Assembly: GCF_014208105.1 (NCBI RefSeq)
Contig: NZ_JACHMQ010000001.1
Span: 2,604,001 to 2,668,000, forward strand
From: Actinomadura coerulea
GTDB lineage: Bacteria > Actinomycetota > Actinomycetes > Streptosporangiales > Streptosporangiaceae
DNA length: 64,000 nt
Direction of reading: 5' to 3'
The notes under the pieces were generated by a model. The model did no database searches, was not told the origin of the DNA, and saw only the letters and a list, made by a program, of their open reading frames with translations. Of this stretch, positions 6,409 to 13,869 are shown in pieces; the first letter of the stretch is position 1, and each line of letters begins with the position of its first letter. A program made the translations under genes and the position numbers.

Positions 6409-7533
6409 ATGATCGCCCCGCCCTGGCAGTCCGGCCCCGCCGCCTACCCCGGCCCGGAGCCGCGCGCCCGCACGCTCTGCCCGTACTGCCTGAACCACAT
6501 CGACTGGTCCGACTACGGAGAGGTCCCGCTCGTCAAGAACACCCCCGACGGGCCGGAGGTGCTGACGCGGGCGCCGGACGAGCCGGAGGTCCGCTGGCGG
6601 CACCGCACGCTCGGCGCGATGCGGCAGTGCCACGGCGACGGCGACCCGCACTCCCTCCCGGCCGACTACGGCGACCTGGACCCGCTCATCATCGGGCTGG
6701 TCGGCGCCAGCGCGGCCGGCAAGACCCACCTGCTCACCGCGATGATCGCGCAGCTCGAACGGCGCAAGGCCATGCTCGCGCCGGAGCTGCGCATCGAACC
6801 GCTCGACGGGCACCTGCGGCAGCGGTTCTACGAGGAGCGGATCCGGCCGTTCCTGGAGCAGCGCCGAGTGCTGCCCGCCACCCGGCGCTCCGCGCGGGCC
6901 GAGTTCGTGTACGCGCTGCGCGTGTCCAGCGAGTACACGGGGCGGACCCACGCCGTCGGGTTCTTCGACGTCCCCGGCGAGCACTACCACCGGTACGAGT
7001 ACGAGGACACCCCGTTCCTCAGCCTCGCCGACGCGATCCTGTACGTCGCCGACGGGCAGCAGCTCCGCACCGGCGACGACTGGAACCCGTGGGTGCCCGA
7101 CCCCGGCTTCACGCACGCGATCACCCAGCTCCTGCACACCCGGCAGACCCGCGACGGCCTGCTGCCGCCCGGCGCCCTCGTCGTCGCCAAGTCCGACATG
7201 CTCGCCGGGCTCGACGGCACCGTCGCGCACTGGCTCGGGCGGGACGACGAGACGGTGCTCGGCGACCTGCGCACCGTCGAGGACGAGAACGAGGCCGCCT
7301 ACGCGTTCCTGGCCCGCCACGGCGCCGAACTGTGGCTCGCGCCGTTCCACTCCGGCTCGCCCACCACGCTCCACTTCGCGTCCGCGTCGGGCGTGCCGCC
7401 GATCCCTGAGGAGGGCGTGTTCCCGCACCGCGACTTCCGCCCGACCCGGGTGCTGCGCCCGCTGCTGTCGCTGTTCAGCGCCACCGGGCTGGTCCCCCGG
7501 ATCGACACCGAGGAGCCCGGCCAGTACCTGTGA
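6409..7533 (+). CDS. TRAFAC-type double-GTPase with N-terminal zinc-ribbon-like motif
   Basis: 374 aa. A CPYCLNHI segment near residue 24, with a later Cys near residue 67, looks like half of a zinc ribbon. The P-loop is GASAAGKTHLL (about residue 102), the Walker-B-like motif FFDVPGE is near 186, and the AKSD motif near 263 fits guanine recognition. The C-terminus (LHFASASGVPP, RVLRPLLSLF) is shared with the truncated paralogue at the left edge. It is the last gene of the plus-strand operon. GTP hydrolysis is well supported by motifs. Participation in a GAP1/GTPase conflict or signalling system follows from gene content. Confidence 0.8.
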   Translation: MIAPPWQSGPAAYPGPEPRARTLCPYCLNHIDWSDYGEVPLVKNTPDGPEVLTRAPDEPEVRWRHRTLGAMRQCHGDGDPHSLPADYGDLDPLIIGLVGASAAGKTHLLTAMIAQLERRKAMLAPELRIEPLDGHLRQRFYEERIRPFLEQRRVLPATRRSARAEFVYALRVSSEYTGRTHAVGFFDVPGEHYHRYEYEDTPFLSLADAILYVADGQQLRTGDDWNPWVPDPGFTHAITQLLHTRQTRDGLLPPGALVVAKSDMLAGLDGTVAHWLGRDDETVLGDLRTVEDENEAAYAFLARHGAELWLAPFHSGSPTTLHFASASGVPPIPEEGVFPHRDFRPTRVLRPLLSLFSATGLVPRIDTEEPGQYL

Positions 7534-7549
7534 GCCCGCCGCCCGCTCG

Positions 7550-7564
7550 CCGCCGGCGCGGCGG
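7550..7564. terminator. Short GC hairpin between convergent genes
   Basis: CCGCCG-gcg-CGGCGG inverted repeat in the 31-nt gap between the convergent GTPase and kinase genes. The stem is only 6 bp, so a bidirectional terminator role is plausible but weak. Confidence 0.3.
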
Positions 7565-9172
7565 TCAGTGCCGGAGCGGGCCGTGCCCGCCCGCCGAGCG
7601 CCAGGCGTGCGGGGCCAGGAGCTGCGCCACCACGAGGTCGGCGCGCCCCTCCACGGTGGCGGGGTCGGCCGACTCGGCGAGCCGCAGCCGGTCCGGCCAC
7701 CACGGGACGTCGCGCGGCACGGCCGCGGCGAGCGCGCGGACCCGCTCCGCGGCGTCGGCGAGCAGCGTGAGCTCCGCCGCCCACGCCCACAGCATCGGCC
7801 ACTCCCGCTCGGACGGCAGCTCCGCCGGCGGCCGGCCCGGACGGGTCCGCAGCACCCGGCCGCGCAACCAGCTCAGCTTCCCCTCCGCCCGCGCGACGAT
7901 CTCCGGGACGTCCGCGTGCACCCGGTCCAGGACGGCGCAGCGCCCCCGGCAGCCGGGATGCCCGCAGCGGTGCCGGGCGGCGTCGGCCAGCACGCCGCCG
8001 TCCACCACCTCACGCAGCAGCTCCCGGTCGGCGGGGCCGCCCCGCGCGAGCCCGAGCAGCCCCGGCGCGTCGATCGGACGGCCCTCGTAGCGCGGCGTCA
8101 CGTCCGGGATGACCTGCGCGGTCAGCCTGATCAGCGCCCGCCGCGCCCCGCCGCCGCCGAGCCCGCGCAGGTACCGCACGTCGGCGGGGTCGGCGCCCTG
8201 GCGGACGAGCCAGTCGGCCAGCCGCCCGCCGTTGCCGGCCAGCCAGGCGGCGCCGTCCCGCCAGTTGCGCTCCAGGTCGTCGGTGAGGCCGCGGACGTCC
8301 CGGTAGGTGCGGCCGTTGAACCGCGGCGGCCGGTGCTCGTCCGCGACCCACGCCACCACGTGCTCGTAGGTCCAGCGCCGCGCCGGGTCGACGACGAGCA
8401 GCCCGTCGATCAGCCGCCGCCACTCCGGGTCGGTCACGGCGTCCAGCGCGGGCCGCCGCCCGGCGCGCAGCAGCTCCCGCACCCGCGCGGACGGCGTCCC
8501 CTCGTACGGCGTCCGCCCGAGGAGGAGCTGGTAGGCGATGATCCCGAGAGCCCACCAGGCGGCCGGAGCGCCGCGGCGGCCCCGCGCGGTCTCGGGCGCG
8601 GCGTAGGCCCAGGTGGTCAGCAGCCCGCCCGGATCCCGCCCATGGACCCGGACGTTGCGGGCTATGCCTCCGAAGTCCCCGATCAGCAGTTCGTAGGGGT
8701 TCCGGGACCGCACCAGGATGTTGGCCGGTTTCACGTCCGTGTGCGTCAGTCCCATGGCGCCCAGCCAGAAGTTCAGGCATTCGGCGAGTTCGGCGACGAT
8801 CGCCCGCAGTTCCGCGTCGCCGAGCGGGAGGGCGTCTCGGATCAGCGCGTCCAGCGAACCGTGCGCGCAGTACTCCTGCGCCATCCAGCCGACCTCGGCG
8901 CCGTCCACGACGAGGTTCCCGTAGTCGTGGATCCGGGGGACGTGCCGGGTGGCCTCCAGCCGCCCCAGCACGACGAGCTGGTCGGTCTCCAGCCGGGCGT
9001 CCCGGTGCACCTTGACGACGACCAGGCCGGCGCCCGCGCAGCCGCCGCCGAGCGGCTCGGCCAGATGGACGACCGACTCGGCGCCGACCGCCTCGATCCG
9101 GACTGGCCGGAATCTCTCCCGCAAGGCCGCCGGAAAGCCATCGGCTTCCCCTGCGCCGCCGACCAGCCCCAA
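7565..9172 (-). CDS. Cytoplasmic serine/threonine protein kinase with unusual C-terminal domain
   Basis: About 535 aa, convergent with the GTPase operon. Kinase motifs: VVVKVHRD (ATP Lys), LTHTDVKPANIL as catalytic loop with HTD in place of HRD, IGDFGGIA (DFG) and WAYAAPE (APE). The region after about residue 285 (RFNGRTYRDVRGLTDDL...) is a helical domain with a CGHPGCRGRC motif that may bind zinc. No transmembrane segment is visible. The start is a TTG at 9172 preceded by AAAGGG; later starts would damage the N-lobe. Loss of the HRD arginine suggests activation without activation-loop phosphorylation. Functional linkage to the adjacent GTPase operon is inference from neighbourhood. Confidence 0.8.
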   Translation of the reverse strand: MGLVGGAGEADGFPAALRERFRPVRIEAVGAESVVHLAEPLGGGCAGAGLVVVKVHRDARLETDQLVVLGRLEATRHVPRIHDYGNLVVDGAEVGWMAQEYCAHGSLDALIRDALPLGDAELRAIVAELAECLNFWLGAMGLTHTDVKPANILVRSRNPYELLIGDFGGIARNVRVHGRDPGGLLTTWAYAAPETARGRRGAPAAWWALGIIAYQLLLGRTPYEGTPSARVRELLRAGRRPALDAVTDPEWRRLIDGLLVVDPARRWTYEHVVAWVADEHRPPRFNGRTYRDVRGLTDDLERNWRDGAAWLAGNGGRLADWLVRQGADPADVRYLRGLGGGGARRALIRLTAQVIPDVTPRYEGRPIDAPGLLGLARGGPADRELLREVVDGGVLADAARHRCGHPGCRGRCAVLDRVHADVPEIVARAEGKLSWLRGRVLRTRPGRPPAELPSEREWPMLWAWAAELTLLADAAERVRALAAAVPRDVPWWPDRLRLAESADPATVEGRADLVVAQLLAPHAWRSAGGHGPLRH

Positions 9173-9347: not shown

Positions 9348-9770
9348 TCAGTGACCGGACAGGCGGCAGAGCATGACACCGACGACGCGGTGACGCGGGA
9401 CGTATCCGTAGTGCCGCGAATCCCAGCTCGCCGGGCGGTTGTCGCCGAGCACGACGAGCGTCCTCGGAGGCACCGGGGCGCCGCCGATCCGCGCGACGTC
9501 CGGGTCGGCCCAGCCGCCGGGCACATGGTCGCCGGGGACGGCCACGGCTCGTTTGAGCAGCAGGGTGGTGCTGGGCCGGCCGGGGGGACGCAGCAGCGCC
9601 ACCTGGCCGCGCCGGACCCTCCGGGTCCGGCGCACGAGGATCCGGTCGCCCGAGCTCAGGGCGGGTTCCATGCTCGTCCCGTCCACGGTGGTCAGCAGAA
9701 GGCCGCGGCGCGCCGCGAGCACCAGCCCGGCCGCGGTGAGCGCCCCGGCGGCGAGGGCGGCGCGGATCAC
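9348..9770 (-). CDS. S26-family signal peptidase (peptide-operon type)
   Basis: 140 aa from GTG, overlapping the ABC gene stop (GTGA). One N-terminal membrane helix (about residues 3-20) is followed by box B DGTSMEPALSSGD, which holds the catalytic Ser, then LLLKRAVAVPGDHV with the general-base Lys, and GDNRPASWDSRHYGYV, the conserved C-terminal box. All catalytic elements are intact and the small size matches specialised actinobacterial SipW/LepB-like enzymes. It is the last gene of a four-gene operon headed by a Cys-rich peptide. The likely substrate is that peptide, cleaved near its ATGSA segment, which is compatible with small residues at -3 and -1. The enzyme class is confident; the substrate is inference. 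Confidence 0.9.
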   Translation of the reverse strand: MIRAALAAGALTAAGLVLAARRGLLLTTVDGTSMEPALSSGDRILVRRTRRVRRGQVALLRPPGRPSTTLLLKRAVAVPGDHVPGGWADPDVARIGGAPVPPRTLVVLGDNRPASWDSRHYGYVPRHRVVGVMLCRLSGH

Positions 9771-11593
9771 GTGACCTCCTGGTAGCCGGACGCCTGGAGC
9801 CGGAAGAGGCGGGCGTACCCGCCGTCGGCGGCCATCAGCGCCGCGTGCGTGCCCTGCTCGACGATCCGCCCCTCCCGCAGGACCACGATGCGGTCGGCGT
9901 CGCGGACGGCGCTCAGCCGGTGCGAGATGAGCAGGCTGGCGCGGTCCCGGCGGTGCTCGCGCATCCGCGCGTGCACCTCGTGCTCGGCCTCGGGGTCCAG
10001 TCCCGCGCCGGGCTCGTCGAGGATCATCAGGTCCCGGCCCTCGCGGACCAGCGCCCGGGCCAGCGCCACCCGCTTCCACTGCCCCCCGGACAGCACCACG
10101 CCGGTCGCCTCGTCCGCCTCGCCGAGCGCGAACATGCGGGTGAGCGCCGTGTCGTAGCCGCGGGGCAGCGCGGCCAGCCGGTCGTGGACGCCGGCGAGGG
10201 CGGCCGCCGCCTCCACCCGGCCCGGCTCGCCCGCGGACGCCAGGTCGCCGAGGGCGATGTTGTCGCGTGCGGTCATCTCGTAGTTCATGTGGTCCTGGAA
10301 GACCGCGCTGATCCGGGCGCGAAGCGCTTCGGGCGGGATGTCGCGCAGGTCCGTGCCGTCCCAGAGGATCCGCCCGCGGGTCGGGTCGTACATCCGGCAC
10401 AGCAGCTTGACCAGCGTGCTCTTGCCCGCGCCGTTCAGACCGACGAGCGCGACGGCGTCGCCGTGAGGGATCGTCAGGTCCACGCCGCGCAGCACCCAGG
10501 GGTGGTCGTCGCCGTAGCGGAACCACACGTCGCGCACCTCGATCCCGCGGCGCAGCGGCGGCGCGTCCGCGCCGTCCGCGCGGGGCAGGTCGGATCCGGC
10601 GTTGACGACGGCGACGTAGTGGGTGAACGCCAGAAGCCGCGCCTGGCCGCCGGACACCGCCGTGATGAGCCCGGCCAGCGCGGTCTGCACCCCCGCGGCC
10701 GCGGCGAGGAACATGGTGACGTCGCCGACGCTGAGCACGCCGTCGCGGGCCGCGCCGATGGCCCACCAGAGGCCGGCGCCGGTCACCGCGGCGCTGACCG
10801 TGGTCAGCCCGCCCTGCGTACGCAGCTCGCGCAGGTCCATGCGGCGGGTGGCCCCGTCGGCGTCCCGCCGCTCGCGCATCATGCGCGAGCGCAGGAACGC
10901 GCCGATCCCGAACAGCCGGATCTCCGTGGCGGCGGCCGTGCCGGTGAGCAGCTGGCCGTAGAAGAACTCGCGGCGGTGGTACCGCTCGATGCTCCACTCC
11001 ATGGCCGAGCGGCGGCGGGTGAGCAGGACCTCGGCTATGAGGGCGGGCAGGGCGGCGGCGAGCACCAGCCCGGTCATCACCGGGCTGAGCACCGCGAGGG
11101 AGCTCAGGAAGCCGACCAGCGACAGCAGCCCGCCGAGCATCCCGCCGAAACCGTCCACGATCTCGGGGAGGCGCTGGACCGCCTGCTGGGCGAGCCGTAG
11201 CCGGTCCTGGAAGGCCGGGTCCTCGAAGGCGCGCAGCCCCACCTGGCGGTCGGCGGCGGCGAACAGCCGGTCCGTGCCGGCCGCCCCGGCCGCCCGGCCG
11301 ATCTGGGACCGCGCGTAGTTCGCGGCGAGCGGCAGGAACGCGCCCGCCGTCCCCGCGGCGACCAGTCCGAGCGCCAGGCCCGCGACCGGGCCGTGCGAGC
11401 CGGTCAGGCGGTCGATCACGAGTTTGGTGAGCCAGGCCGCGGCGACGGGCGTCGCGGCCGCCGCCACGGTGGCGGCCAGGAAGAGCGGAACCCGGACGGG
11501 GGCGGCCCGACCGATCAGCGCGACGGCTGCGGCGGCCGACGCGCTCAGCTCGCGCGGCCCGATCCGCCGGTCCGGTGCCGGGGCGTCGGACAC
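9767..11593 (-). CDS. ABC transporter, fused permease-ATPase (exporter half-transporter)
   Basis: 608 aa from GTG at 11593, two nucleotides after the upstream stop; the longer open frame would overlap the TlpA gene. About six transmembrane helices occupy residues 20-310. The ATPase domain has Walker A GLNGAGKSTLV, signature LSGGQWKRVALAR, Walker B LMILDEPGAGLD and switch His (LLISHRLSAV). There is no N-terminal C39 peptidase domain, so processing must come from another enzyme, for which the coupled S26 peptidase is the obvious candidate. It probably exports the Cys-rich peptide encoded at 12413-12580. As a half-transporter it should act as a homodimer. Confidence 0.9.
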   Translation of the reverse strand: MSDAPAPDRRIGPRELSASAAAAVALIGRAAPVRVPLFLAATVAAAATPVAAAWLTKLVIDRLTGSHGPVAGLALGLVAAGTAGAFLPLAANYARSQIGRAAGAAGTDRLFAAADRQVGLRAFEDPAFQDRLRLAQQAVQRLPEIVDGFGGMLGGLLSLVGFLSSLAVLSPVMTGLVLAAALPALIAEVLLTRRRSAMEWSIERYHRREFFYGQLLTGTAAATEIRLFGIGAFLRSRMMRERRDADGATRRMDLRELRTQGGLTTVSAAVTGAGLWWAIGAARDGVLSVGDVTMFLAAAAGVQTALAGLITAVSGGQARLLAFTHYVAVVNAGSDLPRADGADAPPLRRGIEVRDVWFRYGDDHPWVLRGVDLTIPHGDAVALVGLNGAGKSTLVKLLCRMYDPTRGRILWDGTDLRDIPPEALRARISAVFQDHMNYEMTARDNIALGDLASAGEPGRVEAAAALAGVHDRLAALPRGYDTALTRMFALGEADEATGVVLSGGQWKRVALARALVREGRDLMILDEPGAGLDPEAEHEVHARMREHRRDRASLLISHRLSAVRDADRIVVLREGRIVEQGTHAALMAADGGYARLFRLQASGYQEVT

Positions 11594-11595
11594 GC

Positions 11596-12114
11596 TCAGC
11601 CCCGGCCGGCCGGCACCGGGAGCCGGTCGATCCGGGTGCCGGTCGCGGCGATCCGCCCGTCCTCGTCCACCACGTAGAGGGCGGGGGTCCACTCGTTCTG
11701 GAACGCGCGGGCCATCGGGCCGCCGTCGAGGTCGGCGAGCACCACCCTGGCGACGGGCGCCAGGGCCGCCACCGTCGCCGGGTCGTCACCGCCGACCACC
11801 GCGAGGACCCTCTCCCTGCCCAGGTCGCGCGCTCGGCCGACGAAGGACGGCAGGAGATCGTGGCAGGCCGCGCAGTCGGCGGAGAAGAACCCGACCACGC
11901 CGGTCACATCGCGGTGCGTCACCGGGTCGCCGTCGACGGTCACCGCCGTGAACTCGCCCACGGGGGCGCCCGGCTCCAGGGCGAACAGACTGTCGGCGCG
12001 GCCCGCGGAACGGAGGGCATCCGCCCGCATCCGGCGCAGGATGCCGACCGTCAGCAGCAGGTTCAGCAGGCACAGCACACCGAGCAGCACGACGGCCGCC
12101 ACGAGATATGGCAT
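11596..12114 (-). CDS. Membrane-anchored thioredoxin-like protein (TlpA/MauD type)
   Basis: 172 aa from the ATG at 12114. One N-terminal membrane helix (YLVAAVVLLGVLCLLNLLLT) is followed by an extracytoplasmic thioredoxin fold with the redox motif DCAACHDL (CAAC) about residue 92, after a GFFSADC strand, and a cis-Pro-type region NEWTPALYVVDEDG. The layout matches MauD and TlpA proteins, which keep or form disulfides during maturation of Cys-rich secreted proteins. It lies between a six-Cys peptide gene and an exporter, so disulfide formation or isomerisation in that peptide is the natural hypothesis. A MauE-like membrane partner is not present in the operon. Confidence 0.85.
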   Translation of the reverse strand: MPYLVAAVVLLGVLCLLNLLLTVGILRRMRADALRSAGRADSLFALEPGAPVGEFTAVTVDGDPVTHRDVTGVVGFFSADCAACHDLLPSFVGRARDLGRERVLAVVGGDDPATVAALAPVARVVLADLDGGPMARAFQNEWTPALYVVDEDGRIAATGTRIDRLPVPAGRG

Positions 12115-12362
12115 CAGCAATCCCTAGCGAAGAGTCCAGCGATTTCGTCGAATGAGAGACCGGAATCACCGCAGCCGGAAGGGCGGTCGCGGCTGTCGCC
12201 ATTCCGCCCGGTCGGCGCCGACAGGCCGGGCCGGATACACGGGGAATCACGATGGGCGCGAACACCGGATCGCACCCATGTCGAACAAGGGCGAGCCACA
12301 TTTCGGAGGAGCCGAAAACCCTGGAAGGGCCGCGCTCCGCCGCAGAGGGCTTCTTCCGCCCG

Positions 12363-12394
12363 CCGGGCGGCGGCGCGGCCGCACCGCCGCCCGG
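12363..12394 (-). terminator. Strong hairpin just downstream of the Cys-rich peptide gene (attenuator)
   Basis: A perfect 11-bp inverted repeat (CCGGGCGGCGG / CCGCCGCCCGG) with a 10-nt loop starts 18 nt after the peptide stop. No U-run follows, and the operon continues in the same direction. It would act as a partial terminator or 3' stabiliser giving more peptide mRNA than enzyme mRNA, as is common for precursor-peptide operons. Confidence 0.6.
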
Positions 12395-12412
12395 TTTCGC
12401 AGCCTGATCAGA

Positions 12413-12580
12413 TCAGCAGCTACTGCGGACCTTGGTCCAGCTGCAGCCCGTGTCCACGCAGCAGAACCGGTACCAGTAGCCGGGGTGCCCTTGGGCGTTG
12501 CAGAAGTAGGTGCCGCTGCACGCCGATCCGGTGGCCTTCGGGACGATGCGCTCCAGCGCACGGTCGATGAGACGACTCAT
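12413..12580 (-). CDS. Cys-rich precursor peptide (55 aa), probable secreted disulfide peptide
   Basis: The start is fixed by an AAGGAG box 5-6 nt upstream of the ATG at 12580. The first 20 residues (MSRLIDRALERIVPKATGSA) form an amphipathic, positively charged leader without a Sec-type hydrophobic core. The rest (35 residues) holds all six Cys, as C-x5-C-x13-CC-x4-C-x8-C, plus an aromatic PGYWYRFCC block. A cut after ATGSA would place a Cys at position 1 of the mature peptide. The gene heads an operon with a CAAC thioredoxin, an exporter and a signal peptidase. The aromatic/Cys pattern faintly recalls methylamine dehydrogenase light chains, whose maturation uses MauD, but it is far shorter. 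I do not recognise a named family. Confidence 0.8.
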   Translation of the reverse strand: MSRLIDRALERIVPKATGSACSGTYFCNAQGHPGYWYRFCCVDTGCSWTKVRSSC

Positions 12581-12912
12581 CGCATCTCCTTCTCGTAATG
12601 CCAGAGAATCACCGGATCGAAACGTCGCCGGGCCGTGCACGCGCTGAAGTCAACGGTCGGCACCGTTTATTGTCCGGATTACTCCCCGGCGCGGGGCTGG
12701 CCCAAGTATCACCCCCGGCACCGCGAACACCGCAACCCTCGGTGAACCACAAGATGATCTTTGTGTGATATTGATGAACACCGCGGCAGCAATGATCAAT
12801 AACTCCGTGGTTTGGAGAGGAAACGGTTCTCGGGCCGGCCCGCTGATCTAGTGTCATGCCAGTCCAGCGGGGCTTGGTGCCCCGAACCTTTACCGGAGGG
12901 GCCGATGCTGGG
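12581..12912. other. Divergent intergenic region upstream of the peptide operon and cyclase gene
   Basis: No gene is convincing here. It must contain the promoters of the minus-strand peptide operon and the plus-strand cyclase gene. A TTGACT hexamer occurs on the minus strand near 12650, but I see no clear matching -10 element, so no promoter is called. The stretch around 12660-12800 is less GC-rich than its surroundings. Confidence 0.4.
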
Positions 12913-13869
12913 ATGACGGCAGGGCGGGCGATGCCAACACAGGACGACGTCCTCGGATATTTCGACACGCTGTCGAACTGGGGGCGGTGGGGCGGCGACG
13001 ACGAGCTCGGCACTCTGAACCACATCACCGACGACGTCCGGCTGGCGGCGGCCCGGGCCGTGCGCCACGGCAGGAGCGTGTCGTGCGCGTGGGAGGTCGC
13101 CGTCCCGAAGGACATGGAGCGGTCGACGACGGCGTGCCCGTGCGCCGCCGAGATGCCGGGTGCCGAGAACATGCCGGTGCCCGAGTTCCGCAACGACCGG
13201 CGCTGGGGCTTCTCATCCGAGCGGCTCGGCATCACGTTCCACGGCAACACCCTCACCCACCTCGACTCGCCGTGCCACATCTTCTGGGACGGCACGATGT
13301 ACAACGGGCGGTCGCACTCGCTCGTCGACGCCGAGAAGGGATCGGCGTGGGCGGCGGTCACGGCGGCGGCGAACGGGATCGTCACGCGCGGTGTCCTGCT
13401 GGACGTCGCGAAGGTCCGCGAGGTGCCGTGGCTGGAACCGGGGCAGGGCGTGTTCCCCGAGGATCTCGAGGAGGCCGAGCGTCGCCAGGGTGTGCGGGTG
13501 CGCCCCGGTGATGCGGTGCTCCTGCGGACCGGCTACGGCCGCCTCCGGCACGAGGCCGGTGAGGCCGGCGGCTTCACGCAGGCCGGTTGGCACGCGTCCT
13601 GCCTGCCGTGGCTGCGTGAACGGGAGGTCTCGCTGATCGGCGCCGACACCCCCCAGGACGTCCAGCCCTCGGGGTACAAGGACGTGCTGATGCCGGTCCA
13701 CGCGGTGAGCCTCGTCGCGATGGGGCTGTGGCTGCTCGACAACTGCGACCTGGAGGCGTGCGCGACGACGGCCGCCGAGCTCGGCCAGTGGGACTTCCAA
13801 CTCGCGGTCGCGCCGGTCCGCTTCTCCGGTACGTCCGGCAGCCCGGTCAACCCGATCGCCACGTTCTGA
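12913..13869 (+). CDS. Cyclase-family metal-dependent hydrolase (kynurenine formamidase-like)
   Basis: 318 aa from the ATG at 12913, preceded by GGAGGGG about 11 nt upstream; an ATG at 12931 is an alternative. The metal-binding signature of the family (H-x-x-x-H-x-D-x-P-x-H type) is seen as TLTHLDSPCHIFWDG about residue 112. DAVLLRTGYG and GADTPQDVQPS segments match the C-terminal part of the cyclase/SnoaL-unrelated PF04199 fold. Members hydrolyse N-formylkynurenine, isatin or similar amides, or cyclise polyketides. The substrate cannot be read from sequence. It stands alone between divergent and convergent minus-strand genes. Confidence 0.8.
   Translation: MTAGRAMPTQDDVLGYFDTLSNWGRWGGDDELGTLNHITDDVRLAAARAVRHGRSVSCAWEVAVPKDMERSTTACPCAAEMPGAENMPVPEFRNDRRWGFSSERLGITFHGNTLTHLDSPCHIFWDGTMYNGRSHSLVDAEKGSAWAAVTAAANGIVTRGVLLDVAKVREVPWLEPGQGVFPEDLEEAERRQGVRVRPGDAVLLRTGYGRLRHEAGEAGGFTQAGWHASCLPWLREREVSLIGADTPQDVQPSGYKDVLMPVHAVSLVAMGLWLLDNCDLEACATTAAELGQWDFQLAVAPVRFSGTSGSPVNPIATF

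Follow-up and report, generated by a model that had tools for sequence, protein, structure and literature searches.

A likely secretion-and-folding operon for cysteine-rich peptides with a conserved leader and a variable core in Actinomadura coerulea and its relatives

The 64,000-nucleotide stretch of the Actinomadura coerulea genome analysed here, called the window below, carries on its minus strand a precursor peptide gene followed by genes for a TlpA/MauD-like protein, an ATP-binding cassette (ABC) exporter and an S26 signal peptidase. We consider it likely that they belong to a secretion-and-folding operon, in which a cysteine-rich peptide would be exported by the ABC protein, folded through disulfides and trimmed by the S26 peptidase. 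The gene content, the synteny, the conservation of the leader, the variability of the core and the co-occurrence of the genes were observed in a large set of relatives. The family is real, widespread and mostly lineage-bound, and its peptides are presumably exported. The features of the locus are as follows.

12413..12580, minus strand: precursor peptide, 55 residues, leader and Cys-rich core, ATG start; relatives 43–93% identical in Actinomadura and 80% in four Amycolatopsis genomes.
12521..12580, minus strand: leader, residues 1–20, MSRLIDRALERIVPKATGSA, with Asp-[Arg/Lys/His] in every collected member and an invariant terminal Ala; putative cleavage at its end.
12416..12520, minus strand: predicted mature peptide, residues 21–55, six Cys as C-x5-C-x12-CC-x4-C-x8-C; three strands in AlphaFold2, mean predicted local distance difference test score (pLDDT) 94.1.
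12586..12590, minus strand: ribosome binding site AGGAG, read from the sequence, five bases ahead of the precursor ATG.
12117..12315, minus strand: decayed mauE remnant with C-terminal stub LSFDEIAGLFARDC and a TGATG overlap with the TlpA start, from a DNA match to the gap of locus L034 and the stub score.
11596..12114, minus strand: TlpA/MauD-like membrane-anchored thioredoxin-fold protein, CAAC at residue 81; AhpC-TSA E 2.2e-5, 24.8 bits, just under the Pfam cut-off of 26.
9767..11593, minus strand: ABC exporter, 608 residues, membrane and ATPase domains, no C39 peptidase seen in domain scans.
9348..9770, minus strand: S26 signal peptidase, GTG start, apolar N-terminal segment, SMEP and KRAVAVPGD motifs; PF10502, and TIGR02227 at 75.5 bits against a cut-off of 47.

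A first-pass annotation of the window had described four open reading frames (ORFs) in one direction, with overlaps or a 2-nt gap among the last three, and this layout was found exactly: 2 nt separate the TlpA stop from the ABC start, and the ABC and S26 genes overlap by 4 nt. The 55-residue precursor with a ribosome site and six Cys in its last 35 residues was also confirmed, by the AGGAG and by Cys at positions 21, 27, 40, 41, 46 and 55. Cut after residue 20 and with three disulfides, the predicted 35-mer would have a calculated monoisotopic mass of 3965.57 Da. A C39 domain was not among the rows listed for the window's ABC protein in the domain scans, one of which gave the best 25 of 191. 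The four genes of the annotation stand, but the set was incomplete, a fifth gene, mauE, decayed in the window, and a second and complete copy of the system including mauE (locus L033) in the same 8.19 Mb single-contig genome having been overlooked. The earlier reading should be broadened to a full operon of five genes, mauE among them, and to a large, hypervariable family.

Close relatives of the precursor are found in other Actinomadura (67–93% identity) and in four Amycolatopsis genomes (80%), and a more distant copy is present in the window's own genome. With few exceptions the close relatives precede the same genes and have a ribosome site ahead of them, and the precursor ORF is thus more than a chance reading frame. 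The usual order in these close sets is precursor, MauE where present, TlpA, ABC and S26. The exceptions are three loci without an adjacent ABC gene (L041, L048, L050), two with two precursors each (L040, L042) and one with a precursor of eight core Cys on the opposite strand (L049), while L045, L046 and L052 are truncated or in fragments. Among more distant sets the precursor is sometimes found behind or within the cassette (L072, L074, L119, L137). Amycolatopsis belongs to another order than Actinomadura, which makes transfer between lineages likely. One match in genome G084, 39% identical and with an internal stop, was dropped as chance.

The genome searches scored only the best 16–19 first-look candidates per genome, and the counts are therefore lower bounds. 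With a diverse profile of 25 members, precursors were matched in at least 157 of the 341 genomes searched from the window's family; these belong to 29 of 68 genera and have up to nine matches each. In an even draw of 396 genomes over the phylum only the window's own matched. A narrower profile gave at least 9 of 394 genomes in a draw over the class, including the window's own and one outside the family. From the matches listed in the 341-genome search we picked 60 further loci by hand, one to three per genome and not at random; presence of the cassette genes was called with bit-score thresholds that we set ourselves. In the region of about 8 kb around the precursor, 51 of these 60 loci have a TlpA gene, 49 an ABC gene, 49 an S26 gene and 35 a mauE, and 53 have at least one of the four. 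L007–L009 repeat L038–L040 and do not enter the counts of neighbouring genes. A lack of conserved homologues beside TlpA, ABC and S26 genes would have refuted the first-pass annotation; it withstood this test, all three genes standing together in 44 of the 60.

We collected 113 precursors, of which one duplicate was dropped, leaving 112 distinct sequences. Every leader has Asp-[Arg/Lys/His] within its first 16 residues. The cores are 28–44 residues long and contain six Cys in 92 members, eight in 18, five in one and four in one. Mean pairwise identity is 47% for the leaders and 33% for the cores, and 19% for the cores when the shared Cys are left out. In synonymous/nonsynonymous comparisons of the window with its relatives, each comparison gave no nonsynonymous leader codons and four core codons, too few for a claim of selection. 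Ala 20 of the window's precursor, directly before the core, is the same in every aligned member (25 of 25 and 64 of 64), fitting cleavage by a signal peptidase. A small-x-Ala triplet, most often ASA and in the window GSA, lies 0–7 residues before the first core Cys in all 112, and in 97 it ends no more than two residues from that Cys. Gly-Gly is in none of the 18 kinds of pre-core triplet listed, and Gly-Ala-Ala occurs in one of the 112.

It had been claimed that the leader lacks a Sec core, and this appears to hold for the 112 leaders collected. The longest run of AILMFVWCGT residues in the first 24 is at most six in all 112 sequences and three in the window, and 83 have a charged residue among the seven after Asp-[Arg/Lys/His]. 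Because of these short apolar runs and the charges in the stretch, the hydrophobic core of a Sec signal appears to be missing, and an S26 peptidase cutting an ABC-exported peptide is the best reading. The leader might instead be a short and weak Sec signal peptide cut by S26, with the ABC protein moving something else or serving immunity, and it does have an N-terminal charge, a short apolar stretch and a terminal Ala. The S26 protein passes the bacterial signal peptidase I cut-off (TIGR02227), 29 of the 112 leaders have no charge in the seven residues, and the apolar runs extend to nine when Gly, Ser, Thr and Pro are allowed in them (to nine in 12 of 112 when Ser and Pro are admitted). We nevertheless regard the Sec route as improbable, given the runs and charges above, a conservation at the sequence level that is unusual for Sec signals, and an ABC gene that is part of the set and is found elsewhere in the genome where the locus is without one.

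CxxC is found in 82 of 82 TlpA-like proteins, SMxP in 73 of 74 S26 proteins, CxCFG in 48 of 49 MauE proteins and LSGG in 75 of 78 ABC proteins, and none of the 78 clustered ABC proteins exceeds 680 residues, so that a C39 domain would hardly fit. The three MauE copies in frame that were scored, L003, L131 and L158, are all above the PF07291 cut-off of 27, with 91.7, 96.7 and 78.8 bits. When the genes of 95 loci were clustered, TlpA was present in 81, ABC in 76, S26 in 74, MauE in 49, precursors in 41 (main cluster) and AfsR/SARP-like regulators in 34. Response regulators stand in 14 of these loci, a further ABC ATPase in 11 and a protein resembling short-chain dehydrogenases in 9. None of the usual modification enzymes had been noted in the window, and no dedicated one recurs in this clustering, in which ORFs of fewer than 40 codons or with too much divergence would go unnoticed. 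The AfsR/SARP-like gene immediately adjoins the cassette in 26 loci, but the cluster is mixed: the L072 member has a BTAD domain and the L003 member only NB-ARC/TPR.

It is plausible that the peptides are secreted and act as antagonists, in the manner of bacteriocins or toxins. The AfsR/SARP-like regulators and the response regulators, together with the lack of a recurrent immunity gene at the same loci, would also agree with an extracellular signal or a developmental factor. The core variability and the up to nine precursor matches in a genome fit an arsenal better, and the recurrent clusters listed for the 95 loci include no recognisable receptor gene. A signal is in our view rather unlikely, and we keep to the antagonistic peptide.

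Several points weigh against an exported, folded and trimmed antagonist. The product, its cleavage, its export and its activity are predictions. The window has no intact mauE, and a gap of 298 bp between the precursor and TlpA takes its place. In 7 of the 60 further loci the roughly 8 kb around the precursor are free of cassette genes. A small-x-Ala triplet as such says little, as 91% of shuffled leader ends keep one, and the argument for cleavage comes from the aligned invariant Ala and its closeness to the first Cys. The family was gathered with profiles containing the leader, so leader conservation is partly selected, which does not apply to the association with the cassette. No immunity gene recurs in the 95-locus clustering, which small or divergent ORFs could escape. 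TlpA proteins can act as reductants as well as oxidants, and the window's protein may do either.

Remnants of mauE that are clearer than the window's, interrupted by internal stops, lie in the corresponding gaps of L034 and L038. They score 108 and 144 at the protein level, and none of 200 shuffles reached these scores, whereas the same test found no remnant in five other gaps (L035, L036, L039, L040, L041). Over the full length of the window's gap the protein-level score is reached by 58 of 200 shuffles and thus not significant, and the claim of a remnant in the window is therefore based on the DNA match and the stub. The gap is homologous to that of L034 at the DNA level, scoring 145 where shuffled sequences reach at most 36, and the last 14 codons before the TGATG, LSFDEIAGLFARDC, resemble the C-termini of MauE proteins such as VSLDDIVELFARNP (score 39, reached by none of 5000 random 14-mers). 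By the DNA homology and the MauE-like stub, the window holds a degraded five-gene operon. The intact mauE of the second locus, L033, may serve both loci. It may also be that MauE is dispensable or replaced by an unrelated gene, as genome G018 has precursor matches only at a locus that is without mauE.

Of the seven precursors that stand without a cassette gene, five share one core type. Among 15 genomes with such orphans or with loci lacking an ABC gene, 14 have a full-length exporter homologue, 49–72% identical, and in the one miss, G036, the exporter copy is cut by a contig end (L052). In precursor-negative Actinomadura, of which 14 of the 20 genomes listed were used, the exporter is present in 3 of 14 (against 14 of 15, Fisher p 0.0001). 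All three of these exceptions hold MauE-TlpA-ABC. One of them, L158, turned out to have a 46-residue precursor of the family directly before mauE (10817–10677), missed by the earlier search. In another Actinomadura genome (G031, L159 2499–4478) MauE-TlpA-ABC stands beside an ATP-grasp enzyme and a different precursor ORF with TREPL and a three-Cys tail. The ATP-grasp enzyme is MvdD-like above the Pfam cut-off and scores 284.6 bits with TIGR04187, below the cut-off of 350. By eye, the same kind of precursor and an ATP-grasp sequence are seen in genome G028 (L160, about 9400–11600). The L159 cluster, and by eye L160, is thus graspetide-like; it shares the MauE-TlpA-ABC module and has a three-Cys precursor tail, and differs from the window's system in the ATP-grasp maturase and an unrelated leader. 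The export-and-redox module seems to serve another class of ribosomal peptides as well.

MauE and a MauD/TlpA-like protein together recall the Mau pathway, and the product could be an exported redox or metal-binding mini-protein, like the small subunit of methylamine dehydrogenase, in whose maturation both proteins are named in the text on decRiPPter (PMC7794033). MauE does exceed the PF07291 cut-off. The resemblance to the light chain of the enzyme was dropped as a candidate, since PF02975 picks up none of the 64 precursors at E values up to 1, and the core variability argues against one conserved function; we find a product of this kind very unlikely. A search for the light chain in 30 genomes, including the window's own, gave no match, but the control set was equally silent. 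What the window's system has in common with methylamine dehydrogenase maturation is MauE and a thioredoxin-fold partner acting, as would be expected here, on a Cys-dense exported polypeptide.

Like the double-glycine class II bacteriocins, the window's system has a small unmodified peptide, a conserved leader and a dedicated ABC exporter, but it has a small-x-Ala site, a separate S26 peptidase and redox proteins in place of Gly-Gly and C39. In sublancin and glycocin operons dedicated thiol-disulfide oxidoreductases fold the exported peptide, which is alike, whereas no glycosyltransferase and no C39 domain were recognised in the window's system. The nickel superoxide dismutase maturation protease (TIGR02754) is an S26-type enzyme acting on a leader outside the Sec route, and the window's S26 protein differs from it in scoring 53.7 bits, below that curated cut-off of 63.25, while passing the one for signal peptidase I. 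Our literature searches, whose coverage leaves out most subscription journals, gave no prior art closer than decRiPPter (2020), where three Streptomyces candidate families of ribosomally synthesized and post-translationally modified peptides have mauE, and one also mauD (PMC7794033). Their precursors have at least eight Cys each and a role in precursor modification is proposed (PMC7794033). MauE, in one family MauD, and a Cys-rich precursor are thus shared with the window's system. As far as it goes, the description in PMC7794033, on which this comparison is based, mentions no leader common to the precursors, no cleavage site and no S26 peptidase, and neither diversity among the cores nor a loss of mauE; 'S26' and 'signal peptidase' each occur 0 times in its main text.

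It had been stated that the precursor belongs to no recognised family, and no Pfam or NCBIfam family names it. The scans of 64 precursors gave nothing convincing, CBM_14 matching four members with a best E of 0.007 and other families one member each. A sequence search of the PDB with the 25-member profile returned three chance rows only (E 0.9–2.2). AlphaFold2 predicted the whole precursor, from nine sequences, with a mean pLDDT of 67, and the 35-residue mature part, from seven sequences, with 94.1 (five models, 88.8–94.1), with strands at residues 2–9, 12–21 and 25–32. Foldseek found no convincing match for either model, the best E being 2.1 for the whole precursor and 6.0 for the mature part. 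The only toxin-like row seen was 8bvc, a sea anemone peptide described as a unique fold (E 9.9, Z 2.4).

The Cys order C-C-CC-C-C, present in 79 of the 92 six-Cys cores and in the window, is the one known from knottins (inhibitor cystine knot). By eye, Cys II and VI are jointly absent in two members with four Cys, and Cys I and IV are jointly absent in ten C-x-C cores relative to four relatives with eight Cys. These joint absences hint at a pairing I-IV, II-VI, III-V, unlike the I-IV, II-V, III-VI of knottins. One five-Cys member lacks only Cys V and fits no pairing.

We infer the order of the steps, the ABC protein carrying the precursor, S26 cutting at the end of the leader, the three disulfides and a biological role in antagonism. 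The ribosome would make the 55-residue precursor, whose amphipathic Asp-Arg leader would be recognised by the dedicated ABC exporter, and this would carry the precursor, still reduced, through the membrane. On the outer side three disulfides would be formed or corrected by the TlpA-like CAAC protein, which is anchored in the membrane and, in loci with mauE, would have MauE as its redox partner there. The S26 peptidase, its active site facing the same side, would cut after the small-x-Ala (GSA) and release a three-stranded peptide of 35 residues. Across relatives the leader and the machinery change little and the core a great deal, and in many strains AfsR/SARP-like regulators lie alongside.

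A wider view is that MauE-TlpA-ABC-S26 could be a general and unnamed export line for disulfide-rich mini-proteins, in which a conserved small-x-Ala leader outside the Sec route would take whatever Cys-rich core follows it through a single exporter to a folding station on the outside. The window's family would then field a rapidly diversifying, venom-like arsenal with a three-stranded fold and disulfide order of its own. We put this forward tentatively, as a possibility that we hold to fall a little short of probable. If it is true, nearly half of the searched genomes in a large actinomycete family would be an unexplored source of stable disulfide-rich peptides, and a searchable leader with a compact module accepting very different cores would help in discovering new peptides with antibacterial or signalling roles and possibly offer a production route for knottin-sized peptides. 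The near-constant front part and the ever-changing end part across relatives are comparable to venom peptides. MauE and MauD-like proteins would gain a directly testable role outside methylamine metabolism.

Some loci have more than one precursor. In the matching genome outside the window's family, L066 has three tandem precursors of the C-x-C type (7453–8033), with S26 on the opposite strand and MauE-TlpA-ABC downstream. At L068 (3421–3795) and L147 (7604–8043) two and three different precursors, respectively, lie side by side behind one cassette; the neighbouring cores differ in their Cys order, and at L147 one match is weak (E 0.025). A single export line appears to serve several cores at these two loci. 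In genome G639 two core types are found in separate loci, L098 and L099, the latter without an adjacent ABC gene.

At L073 (11008–11862) an ORF of 284 residues fuses a MauE-like part to an apparently thioredoxin-like part with CGLC, and adjoins a second, more distant ABC exporter. In the window, the ORF at 12931–13869, transcribed away from the precursor, matches the Pfam family Cyclase (PF04199, 77.1 bits). It is probably unrelated to the peptide system, because its cluster has no member from the other 94 loci.

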